Source: Brevibacterium sp. CCUG 69071 (GTDB lineage: Bacteria; Actinomycetota; Actinomycetes; Actinomycetales; Brevibacteriaceae). From it: a stretch of 64,000 bases of DNA. The translations under genes were made by a program, and so were the position numbers. The stretch is from NCBI RefSeq assembly GCF_021023135.1, contig NZ_PGFV01000001.1, positions 186,001 to 250,000 of the forward strand, in the 5' to 3' direction. This document shows, piece after piece, positions 1 to 3,364 of the stretch (the first letter of the stretch is position 1; every line of letters starts with the position of its first letter). The notes beneath the pieces were generated by a model that saw only the letters and a list, made by a program, of their open reading frames with translations, searched no databases and was not told the origin of the DNA.

Positions 1-1
1 A

Positions 2-208
2 ATGGCAGAGCTCGCGAACTCGATCGTCGACCGGTGCCAGGTCCCGGTCGTCGACGGAGTCACGGCCGCAGTCAGACTCGCCGAATCACTTGTCGGCCTC
101 GGCCTGTCGACCTCGAAGGTGCGCACCTATGCGCCGGCCAGGCCGAAGCAGATGCGCGGCTGGCCTCTGGGTGAGAACGCAGCCGTCTCCGCGCATGAAG
201 CGGACTGA
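2..208 (+). CDS. Hydantoin/Asp-Glu racemase family protein, C-terminal end (cut by window edge)
   Basis: Only the last 68 residues are present; the gene starts before base 1, so the first ATG seen is internal. The text MAELANSI, PVVDGVTAAVRLAE, GLGLSTSK and YAPARPK matches the C-terminal part of hydantoin racemases (HyuE type), where the second catalytic cysteine lies just before the MA-LA stretch and so is outside the window. These enzymes interconvert D- and L-5-substituted hydantoins before hydantoinase action. The convergent GntR gene downstream is a plausible local regulator of a hydantoin or ureide pathway lying to the left; that link is inference. Confidence 0.75.
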   Translation: MAELANSIVDRCQVPVVDGVTAAVRLAESLVGLGLSTSKVRTYAPARPKQMRGWPLGENAAVSAHEAD

Positions 209-958: not shown

Positions 959-1068
959 TCATTGTCGGCCCTGCTTGGACGGGAACCGAAGGCGGCTGAT
1001 TCGGACAGGATCCGACCGCGAGATTGCGGTGCGCGGTGGTGCAGGCTCGTGCTAGGGTCGCAGGCAGT

Positions 1069-1146
1069 GACACGGGGTGCCCCCAAGCGAGGGCTGAGAG
1101 AACACCCGTCGAACCTGATCCGGTTAGTACCGGCGAAGGGATTGTC
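1069..1146 (+). ncRNA. TPP (thiamine pyrophosphate) riboswitch, THI element
   Basis: All conserved blocks of the THI box are present in order: CGGGGTGC, GGGCTGAGAG, ACCC, GAACCTGATCCGG and TAGTACCGGCGAAGGGA. The outer helix closes with GACA (1069-1072) against TGTC (1143-1146). TPP aptamers bind thiamine diphosphate and normally switch off thiamine synthesis or uptake genes. Here the next genes on the same strand are an SDR and a luciferase-like monooxygenase, neither a known thiamine gene. Confidence 0.95.
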
Positions 1147-1216
1147 CGCAGGATCGACTGCGCACCGTCACCGAGGTGACCCCTCGGCGGCTGTCCGAGG
1201 CTCGACCCGTTCGGTG

Positions 1217-1240
1217 TTCCTTCGCCATGGGCAGAAGGAG
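1217..1240 (+). promoter_or_regulatory. Hairpin able to hide the SDR ribosome-binding site
   Basis: TCCTTC (1218-1223) is complementary to GAAGGA (1234-1239), with a further T-G wobble at the base and a 10-base loop. The right arm is the Shine-Dalgarno sequence (AGAAGGAG, 1233-1240) of the SDR gene, whose ATG is at 1247. It could serve as the off state of a translational riboswitch. Two competing small helices, GTCACC/GGTGAC (1167-1180) and CCGAG/CTCGG (1171-1187), lie between the aptamer and this hairpin. Confidence 0.5.
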
Positions 1241-1246
1241 ACGCAC

Positions 1247-2041
1247 ATGAGCGAGACCACCGACCAGACCACGAGCAACCCGCCGATTGCTGAGCAGATC
1301 GTCCTCATCACCGGGGGCGCCCGCGGGCTCGGACTCAGCCTTACAAGGGCTTTCCTCCGCGAGGGCGCCAAGGTCGTCATCAACTATCTCACCAGCGAAG
1401 ATTCCGCCAGACAGCTCGCCGCCGCACATCCCGACCGGGCCGTCGCAATCCGTGCCGATGTCCGTGACCGGTCGCAGGTCGAGGCCCTCTTCGCCGAGGC
1501 GGCCCAGCATTTCGGGGCCCCGATCACCACCGTGGTCAACAACGCCCTCATCGACTTCTCCTTCAATGGTGATGCCAGACCCCATGCCGAGGAAATCACC
1601 GTCGAAGCGCTGACGGCACAGTTTCAGGGAGCCGTCGGTGCGGCGACGAATACCTCCCAGATCGCATTGGCCGGGTTCGCGCAAGCCGGGTCGGGGCGGA
1701 TCATCAACATCGGCACCAATCTGTTCCAGAACCCGGTCGTGCCCTACCACGACTACACTGCGGCGAAGGCGGCGCTGCTGTCGCTGACGAGAACCTTCGC
1801 CGCCGATCTCGGACCCCGCCAGGTGCGGGTGAACATGCTCAGCGGCGGACTGCTGCGAACCACGGACGCCAGCGCCGCGACACCCGCAGAGGTCTTCGAC
1901 GGCATCGCCGCCGGCACCCCGCTGCAGCGGGTGACCACCCCGGAGGAATTCGCCGACTCCGCACTCATCTTCGCCTCACCCTGGTCGCGGGGGATCACCG
2001 GTCAGAATCTCGTCGTCGACGGAGGACTGGTGAAGAACTGA
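1247..2041 (+). CDS. SDR-family oxidoreductase (3-oxoacyl-ACP reductase-like)
   Basis: 264 residues, a classical short-chain dehydrogenase/reductase. It has the nucleotide-binding TGGARGLG (22-29), NNAL (98-101) in place of NNAG, and the catalytic pair Tyr170-x3-Lys174 (YTAAK). The usual catalytic serine region reads GTNLF (156-160), so threonine may replace serine. The C-terminal NLVVDGGLVKN is typical of FabG-like enzymes. The start at 1247 is set by a strong Shine-Dalgarno at 1233-1240. It is the first gene behind the TPP riboswitch, and its TGA overlaps the ATG of the monooxygenase gene by one base, so the two are coupled. The substrate is unknown. Confidence 0.88.
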   Translation: MSETTDQTTSNPPIAEQIVLITGGARGLGLSLTRAFLREGAKVVINYLTSEDSARQLAAAHPDRAVAIRADVRDRSQVEALFAEAAQHFGAPITTVVNNALIDFSFNGDARPHAEEITVEALTAQFQGAVGAATNTSQIALAGFAQAGSGRIINIGTNLFQNPVVPYHDYTAAKAALLSLTRTFAADLGPRQVRVNMLSGGLLRTTDASAATPAEVFDGIAAGTPLQRVTTPEEFADSALIFASPWSRGITGQNLVVDGGLVKN

Positions 2042-3364
2042 TGTCTCACGACCAGACGCCCCACGACCCGACGCCGCATCGTCCGGTCCATCTCAATCTT
2101 TTCGCCCACGGCTGCGGACACCATTCGGCGGCCTGGCGGGCCGAGGATTCGACGGTCGAGCGCCTCGGCGACATCACCTACTGGGAGGAACTGGCTCGGA
2201 TCGCCGAACGCGGACGGTTCGACGCCTTCTTCCTCGCCGACGGACAGTCGGCCGGAGTCCCGGGCCTGGCGAACGGCCCGCGGTGGCTTCTCGAACCGCT
2301 GACCACCCTGACCGCACTGTCCCGAGCGACGGCGCATATCGGACTGGTGAGCACGATCTCGGCGAGCTTCTGGGATTCGTTCCACGCGGCGCGGATCCTC
2401 GCCGGCCTCGACCACATCTCCGGTGGCCGGGCCGGGGTCAACATCGTGACCTCGACGACCGACGCCGAGGCACGCAACCACGGCATGGACGGACTGCCCG
2501 CGCATGCGCAGCGCTACGCTCGGGCCGAGGAATTCACCTCGGTGATGCTCAGGCTCTGGGACTCGTGGCCGGCCGAGGCGATCCTCGCCGATCGCGACGG
2601 TGACTATGTCGACGAATCTCGACTGCAGTCGATCGACCACTCAGGCGATCACTTCTGCGTGGCAGGTCCCGCTCAACATCCCCTCGACCCCGCAGGGCCG
2701 ACCGGTGATCTTCCAAGCCGGCGCCTCCGCGCCGGGCCGGGACCTGGCGGCCCGGTTCGCCGACGGCATCTACGCGGTCGCCTGGGACTTCGAACAGGCA
2801 CTCGAATACAGGCAGGACGTCCTCGCCCGTGCCGCGACCGCCGGACGCGACCCCGACTCGGTCACGGTCATGCCCGGGCTCGTCACCTATGTGGCACCGA
2901 GCGAGGCAGGGGCCAGGGAGCTCCAGGCCGAACTCAACGACCTGCTGCCCGTCGCGGACTCGTTGCGCCAGCTGGCCTACTTCACCGGGCAGGACACCTC
3001 CGACTGGGACCTCGACGGTCCCGTCCCGGAACTGCCCCCACTCGAGGAGTTCACCGGTCCGCAGGGACGCTACGCCACGGTGCTGCGGATCATCGAGACC
3101 ACCCGGCCGACGGTGCGCGAACTTCTCGGCTACCTCGCCACCGGTGGGGGACACGCCACCTTCATCGGCACTCCGGAGCACATCGCCGATGAGATTCTGC
3201 GGTGGATCGACCGGGGAGCGGCCGACGGCTTCAACCTCATGCCGCCGGCACTGCCGGGCAGCCTCGAGGACTTGGTCGATCTCGTCGTCCCGATCCTCCA
3301 GGACCGTGGCCGCTTCCGGCGCGACTACACCGGGTCGACGCTACGCGACCACCTCGGCGAGTGA
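2041..3364 (+). pseudogene. Luciferase-like FMN-dependent monooxygenase (NtaA/SnaA/DszA type), frameshifted
   Basis: The N-terminal half (frame of 2041) reads as an NtaA-type flavin monooxygenase: HLNLFAHGCGHH, WEELARIAERGRFDAFFLAD, HAARILAGLDHISGGRAGVNIVTS. Near 2668-2671 the reading passes into the next frame, which continues the family text (PLNIPSTPQGRPVIFQAG, then AARFADGIYAV) to the stop at 3364. Removing one C from the CCC run at 2668-2670 gives GPLNIP and an intact protein of about 440 residues, the normal family length. As written the gene is broken into two frames; this is a real mutation or a sequencing error. Family members oxidise small organic substrates using FMNH2 from a partner reductase; none is encoded nearby. 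Confidence 0.8.

Follow-up and report, generated by a model that had tools for sequence, protein, structure and literature searches.

The thiamine salvage genes known to be controlled by thiamine pyrophosphate (TPP) riboswitches, or THI elements, include thiM-thiE-thiD, ykoEDC, tenA and ylmB. An older comparative study is said to have also proposed oarX, encoding a protein similar to short-chain dehydrogenases/reductases (SDR; 3-oxoacyl-ACP-reductase-like), as a member of thiamin regulons, reportedly with no luciferase-like monooxygenase (LLM) as partner. Here we analyze a stretch of 64,000 nucleotides from Brevibacterium sp. CCUG 69071 (contig NZ_PGFV01000001.1, positions 186,001 to 250,000; hereafter, the window), in which a TPP riboswitch precedes an SDR gene and an LLM gene. 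The best explanation of the locus as a whole, albeit a tentative one, is that the window carries one copy of a TPP-controlled thiamine salvage or repair module with a pyrimidine-aldehyde mechanism.

The closest solved relatives of the LLM are YtnJ/MoxC, NtaA, DszA, the alkane, dimethyl sulfide and ethylenediaminetetraacetate monooxygenases, and riboflavin lyase; C-S or C-N bond cleavage is the reaction of most of these enzymes. YtnJ is the best match (E 1e-93) and the riboflavin lyase RcaE a weaker one (E 8e-54); ScmK is presumably a further relative. ScmK hydroxylates an S-adduct, releasing a thiol (PMC12757645). The bacimethrin pathway and the bcm gene set are known in Clostridium and Paenibacillus, and a TPP riboswitch has been proposed for the Paenibacillus bcm operons (PMC12345177, PMC5627462); the accessible part of PMC12637900 names no bcm genes. 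Searches of the literature, with older subscription papers outside their reach, returned no link of a TPP riboswitch to an LLM, no link of a THI element to an SDR, no thiamin-linked monooxygenase in actinobacteria, and nothing on oarX with thiamin. Within that reach, the SDR-LLM pair, its operons and its link to bcm genes appear to be new, and the SDR half may have been noted before.

A TPP riboswitch, an SDR and a monooxygenase form a recurrent module

The aptamer (positions 1063-1159, plus strand) scores 68.6 bits with the Rfam TPP model RF00059 (gathering score, 54.3; E 2.3e-11), and nothing else in the 64-kb window reaches an Rfam gathering score. The match covers all 105 model positions (1-105), in agreement with a preliminary description of this DNA, which had reported a complete THI element. 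Downstream, on the same strand, an intact 264-aa frame (1247-2041) encodes an SDR of the NF006393 (PRK08642) family (408 bits against a cut-off of 292; Pfam PF13561, 160.7 bits). Classical SDRs are expected to carry the motifs TGxxxGxG, NNA and YxxxK, and the window protein has TGGARGLG, NNAL and YTAAK. Y170 and K174 are invariant across 11 aligned SDRs, as is Thr157, which occupies what we take to be the position of the usual SDR Ser, 13 residues before the Tyr. At 1e-10, the window SDR matched 412 general SDR sequences, and at E 1e-30 it matched no solved structure.

The start codon of the following gene overlaps the SDR stop codon by one base (TGATG at 2039-2043). This gene encodes a flavin mononucleotide (FMN)-dependent monooxygenase of the NtaA/DmoA family in two plus-strand halves, namely, an N-terminal half (2041-2664; TIGR03860 positions 1-195, 222.2 bits) and, in a different frame, a C-terminal half (2666-3364; TIGR03860 positions 198-422 matched by 2666-3361, 244.6 bits). 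Thus, the earlier account of an SDR joined by a one-base overlap to an NtaA/SnaA-type monooxygenase behind the aptamer stands as to the overlap and the families, but not as to a single monooxygenase frame, which changes near position 2664.

The aptamer-SDR-LLM arrangement recurs beyond chance and is a real module. A single LLM clade comprises 25 different members, counting the window, from Brevibacterium, Nesterenkonia and additional genomes in their order and class. Members were found in two other Brevibacterium genomes (G030 and G023; 57 genomes of the genus searched), three Nesterenkonia genomes, 15 of the 396 genomes of the order (G030 included) and 5 of 394 of the class, and a phylum sample of 168 genomes contained no clade member and just two sister LLMs. 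Weaker matches in the genus search (36-47% identity) were not placed, with the exception of those in G003 and G056, which are among the sisters. The clade is separated from other LLMs by a gap in score (590.9 versus 464.3 bits in the order search and 756.0 versus 575.4 in the class search), is supported in the tree at 98/94 with both window halves included, and shows 24 clade-specific conserved positions in comparison with 40 sisters, among them W75, M132, Y244 and W322 (CS2 numbering).

A TPP aptamer at the Rfam gathering score was found for 21 of the 25 clade LLMs; three of the remaining leaders scored 52.4-53.3 bits (threshold 54.3), and that of G111 had a weak match (33.5 bits, E 0.009). 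The aptamer lies immediately 5' of the two-gene unit in 23 cases and heads a longer thiamine operon in the other two (G219 and G181). By contrast, a THI-box motif was present upstream of the LLM in none of 40 sister loci, fetched from 74 places in the order and class searches, a few of them duplicated; one locus (L152) has such a motif downstream, on the opposite strand. The motif scan recovers 24 of the 25 positives, and the seven sister loci that were also scanned with Rfam gave no TPP match. Conservation of the pair behind TPP riboswitches elsewhere, on which the preliminary description had made its proposal depend, is thus borne out by a clade spread over several genera.

On the SDR side, a 100/100 branch divides 27 TPP-linked proteins from 24 further SDR paralogues in Brevibacterium. 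An SDR of the NF006393-type family occurs in 50 of the 57 Brevibacterium genomes (E 1e-40 or better), mostly as a non-TPP copy that is 58-68% identical, and in the 8 loci of this paralogue, of 24 fetched, in which the neighbours were considered, no clear operon and no functional hint were apparent. The two window LLM halves cluster with LLMs of other genera (G279, G298, G361, G310 and others; 100/99), apart from the other Brevibacterium copies. In the SDR tree, the window protein is excluded from the group that holds the G279/G298/G361/G310-type copies (97/92), and its placement is not fixed. Together, the LLM and SDR trees suggest a separate horizontal arrival.

Two observations concern individual loci. 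Ten class-level sister LLM loci (L146-L155), in which the genes were inspected by eye, lie beside ATP-binding cassette (ABC) ATPase or permease genes resembling sulfonate-type importers. In Brevibacterium sp. 68QC2CO, a glycine riboswitch (L093:11401-11512) directly follows the SDR-LLM genes and precedes apparent glycine cleavage genes.

The pair occurs within and beside thiamine operons

In one genome (G219, L134), the pair is the distal part of an operon with the order TPP-thiM-thiE-SDR-LLM, which faces a thiD gene (identified by eye) with a TPP-like motif scoring below gathering. In another (G181, L135), an aptamer of 53.3 bits is followed by thiO-thiS-thiG-thiF-alcohol dehydrogenase-LLM (thiS and thiF by eye), and in two more (G336 and G353; L127 and L131), the SDR-LLM unit is divergent from TPP-thiO-thiG-thiF (thiO and thiF by eye). 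Hence, the earlier statement that the riboswitch serves no thiamine genes is accurate for the window but not for these four genomes. That the two proteins themselves fall outside the known thiamine families was confirmed: in a comparison with ThiC/D/E/F/G/M/O/S, TenA and transporters, Pfam and NCBIfam gave only SDR-type and LLM families, among the best 25 of 226 NCBIfam matches in the case of the SDR.

In G181 and G111, the SDR is replaced by a zinc-type alcohol dehydrogenase of the medium-chain dehydrogenase/reductase (MDR) type (by eye in G111), which suggests that the partner of the LLM performs an alcohol/aldehyde step. The SDR-LLM unit is probably a thiamine-linked salvage or repair module.

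The window leader resembles an OFF switch

The layout of the window leader looks like that of an OFF switch, and the computational prediction is that TPP should shut the genes. A 3' conserved part of the aptamer, GGCGAAGG (1132-1139, plus strand), is a perfect 8-nt complement of the predicted switching strand CCTTCGCC (1219-1226, plus strand), which could pair either with the aptamer (ON) or with the putative ribosome-binding site of the SDR gene, AGAAGGAG (1233-1240, plus strand; 7-14 bases 5' of the ATG at 1247) (OFF). When the 45 bases preceding the SDR start codon were shuffled 500 times, no complement of 8 nt or longer arose. With ligand-free energies, the minimum-energy fold (-79.9 kcal/mol) has 1219-1226 bound to the ribosome-binding site, of which 6 of 8 bases are paired and 2 free; forcing the aptamer pairing of 1219-1226 yields a fold energy of -74.9 and leaves 4 bases paired and 4 free.

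A leader of the OFF type speaks against plain thiamine breakdown, because degradation would stop when thiamine is plentiful. The preliminary description had allowed that the pair salvages, breaks down, makes or repairs a thiamine-related compound; salvage or repair is the part of that range that emerges as the best reading, and plain breakdown is disfavored. The same description had considered a ring-opening pathway, in view of a hydantoin racemase and a GntR regulator alongside the pair. Both genes are indeed present, the Asp/Glu/hydantoin racemase by its 3' end (window positions 1-208, plus strand) and the GntR (FCD) regulator at 254-946 on the minus strand. Further upstream (L078:5228-11303) lie an NCS1-type permease (PF02133) and a second LLM, and the four genes possibly constitute a separate uptake and breakdown cluster. 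Beside other copies of the pair, neither racemase nor GntR was seen by eye in the first 70-130 residues of the gene calls, where no profile scan was made, and the ring-opening pathway with its hydantoin/GntR link was rejected on this ground. Catabolism of thiamine or of a hydantoin-like ring would match the vitamin-degrading activity of riboflavin lyase, a relative of the LLM, as well as the racemase and permease upstream of the window pair; given the predicted OFF switch and the lack of the racemase and GntR genes in the gene calls viewed beside other copies, we regard it as very improbable.

The window monooxygenase contains a frame change

The window LLM halves are 58-59% (N-terminal) and 65-68% (C-terminal) identical to intact relatives, and tblastn with two intact relatives produced an alignment that crosses the same frame change near 2664. 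No internal stop occurs in the LLMs of 24 relatives; Brevibacterium sp. CS2 and Nesterenkonia haasae, for example, have both the SDR and the LLM intact. The full-length threshold of TIGR03860 is 279.7 bits, compared with the separate scores of the two halves given above and with 522.5 and 511.4 bits for two intact relatives. A structure predicted for the LLM with an alignment of 5 rows was too poor to be used (mean predicted local distance difference test score, 43.5).

The window LLM appears to be either a broken gene or the product of an assembly error and, given the frameshift in this assembly, the second enzyme may not be functional in the window strain. A decaying operon, with the LLM reduced to a pseudogene and the SDR alone still in use, would be compatible with every functional reading, and we consider the evidence for it evenly balanced. 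The frame change itself and the retention of the SDR beside a shortened LLM in four other loci (see below) point to decay, whereas neither half contains any further stop, both retain coding-type GC at third codon positions (0.83 in the N-terminal and 0.88 in the C-terminal half), and an assembly error would give an identical picture.

A bacimethrin-type cluster adjoins the TPP-SDR unit in five genomes

In Brevibacterium sp. CS2 (G030, L081), the SDR-LLM unit comes after a second TPP-led operon with the order TPP-Nudix-ThiD (hydroxymethylpyrimidine (HMP) phosphate kinase)-BcmB-BcmA-methyltransferase-second Nudix. The BcmA-like protein is closest to cytidine monophosphate (CMP) 5-hydroxymethylase (E 3e-80) and the BcmB-like protein to a CMP/hydroxymethyl-CMP hydrolase (E 3e-45); no thiaminase I is present among the cluster genes of L081. 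Six of the 396 genomes of the order carry a BcmA-like gene, as does G049. Because this gene is ~93% identical to the G030 copy across two genera, the bcm-type cluster has probably been mobile recently.

An SDR with its own TPP aptamer adjoins the BcmA-like gene in five of the seven loci, four of them in Brevibacterium (G030, G004, G042 and G049) and one in another genus (G369); of the other two, the contig ends in G099 and the cluster is cut in G014. An intact LLM accompanies the SDR in G030 only, and in the other four loci the LLM match stops after 28-37 residues. This shortening weakens the idea that producing bacimethrin, or being immune to it, requires the LLM. The window genome (G000) has no BcmA match at E 1e-50.

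These loci bear on the possibility that the pair handles antivitamins, that is, destroys or modifies bacimethrin, methoxythiamin or a similar pyrimidine compound, either for self-protection of a producer or as a defence of non-producers that senses the loss of TPP. The position of the TPP-SDR unit directly behind the TPP-Nudix-ThiD-BcmB-BcmA-methyltransferase-Nudix cluster in five genomes argues for such a role, as do the known bacimethrin pathway and the putatively TPP-controlled bcm operons of Paenibacillus (PMC12345177, PMC5627462). Nevertheless, we judge it unlikely: taking the two draws of 396 genomes as the same, only one of the 15 carriers in the order, G030, also belongs to the 6 BcmA-matching genomes, and the window genome gave no BcmA match, so that on both counts most carriers are not producers; and with the LLM match cut short in four of the five bcm-SDR loci, the likely producers seem to manage without an LLM.

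Several further observations were made in these genomes. The cluster spans L081:4700-11404, similar clusters with two TPP riboswitches are found at L079, L080, L083 and L183, and the hosts of the bcm-type cluster include B. aurantiacum ATCC 9175 (record match). Beside the cut cluster of G014 (L185) there is a GntR-like gene, and the SDR and LLM are absent there. In G041 (L088:3386-10916), a TPP motif is followed by thiD-tenA-tenA (tenA by eye); the locus contains two TPP aptamers ~500 bases apart on opposite strands, and the plus-strand one is followed by a Nudix gene that is 54-58% identical to the Nudix genes of the bacimethrin-type cluster.

A candidate route to the thiamine pyrimidine

Of 23 carriers, a set that includes the SDR-only genomes G004, G042 and G049 but none of the five class genomes, 19 have ThiG and 4 have ThiC. 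The window genome has thiG, no thiC match and two TenA-family genes; the remaining TPP aptamers in it precede thiM-thiE-thiD, thiO-thiG, a TenA-family gene and a gene identified by eye as encoding an ECF-type transporter. Since thiG is present and thiC is absent, the window strain should make its own thiazole and scavenge the pyrimidine from outside HMP; likewise, the 19 carriers without ThiC should depend on scavenged pyrimidine.

In the pyrimidine-aldehyde route, low TPP would switch on the SDR-LLM genes. The LLM, with reduced FMN and O2, would then hydroxylate the carbon adjoining a C-N or C-S bond in a thiamine pyrimidine that is damaged or carries a substituent; candidate substrates are a thiaminase product, a sulfite product or a thiol adduct. 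Cleavage at the pyrimidine methylene would yield 4-amino-5-formyl-2-methylpyrimidine, which the SDR or MDR would reduce to HMP for use by ThiD and ThiE. This route fits the predicted low-TPP induction, the SDR/MDR exchange and the operon with thiM-thiE. It is somewhat more tentative than the explanation of the locus as a whole. Doubtful to a greater degree is its fullest form, a new O2-dependent pyrimidine rescue that would be induced by low TPP, mobile across actinobacteria and captured beside a mobile bacimethrin cluster, turning damaged, exchanged or antivitamin thiamine via the aldehyde into HMP.

Alternatively, the pair could act on the thiazole side, regenerating hydroxyethylthiazole from a modified thiazole or freeing sulfur for thiazole synthesis through C-S cleavage. 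The operon with thiM (hydroxyethylthiazole kinase), the operon with thiO-thiG-thiF and the divergence from it, and the sulfonate-system-like ABC genes noted by eye beside the ten class-level sister loci (L146-L155) are all in keeping with such a role. However, ThiG is missing in 4 of the 23 carriers, which implies that the pair is independent of thiazole synthesis, and in the bcm loci it accompanies pyrimidine enzymes; we therefore find a thiazole role slightly less likely than antivitamin handling.

Several findings weigh against the pyrimidine-aldehyde salvage or repair module. The pair shares one operon with genes of thiazole synthesis and adjoins such genes in two further genomes, and the pyrimidine route does not explain well why these three copies travel with them. 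Four of the loci with bcm genes retain the SDR but have no intact LLM, and inspection by eye revealed no flavin reductase gene next to the pair. The 8-nt switch complement is present in 9 of 24 related leaders, which is a lower bound given that wrong start codons were picked by the script for five leaders; it is absent, however, in several leaders that are free of this error, for example, those of G231, G336, G353 and G392. Taken over its full length, the window leader is not more stably folded than shuffled sequences (z -0.83; 35 of 200 shuffles as good). Furthermore, few genomes anywhere in the order have ThiC (63 of 396), and 21 of 28 carriers possess TenA.

The last two counts also decide against two replacements that were considered. 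ThiC is missing in 19 of the 23 carriers but equally in 333 of the 396 genomes of the order, without enrichment, and four carriers have it; the low incidence of ThiC among carriers is thus the background of the order rather than a correlation, and the unit was not retained as a replacement for ThiC. A simple replacement of TenA was rejected in view of its presence in most carriers.

If the pair does supply HMP or repair thiamine, such a TPP-controlled two-enzyme unit would fill a gap in the acquisition of vitamin B1 by actinobacteria. One branch of a monooxygenase family that cleaves stable C-N and C-S bonds would thereby gain a proposed function, with a tie to thiamine antivitamins.

Comparison with known systems

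The pair shares with YtnJ/MoxC and other NtaA/DmoA monooxygenases the TIGR03860 family (522.5 bits for an intact relative), so that C-S or C-N cleavage would be expected by analogy. It differs from YtnJ/MoxC in that its LLM belongs to a separate, TPP-linked clade, has an alcohol dehydrogenase as partner and is under TPP riboswitch control. The window LLM is in the same family as RcaE, which strips a vitamin of its side chain by oxidative removal of the ribityl chain of riboflavin (PMC12746152); unlike the window pair, RcaE is catabolic, and it is less similar to the LLM than YtnJ is.

With the bcm operons of Clostridium and Paenibacillus, the loci of five genomes have in common a TPP riboswitch and thymidylate-synthase-like, glycosidase-like, methyltransferase, Nudix and ThiD genes beside the unit. 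In contrast to those operons, the L081 cluster is devoid of thiaminase I, and TPP-SDR(-LLM) comes after it instead. Finally, the TPP-controlled thiamine salvage operons resemble the module in riboswitch family and in computed OFF logic, and in one genome (L134) the pair lies within a TPP-thiM-thiE operon; the pair departs from them in consisting of an SDR or MDR and an FMN monooxygenase, rather than of kinases, synthases, hydrolases or transporters.

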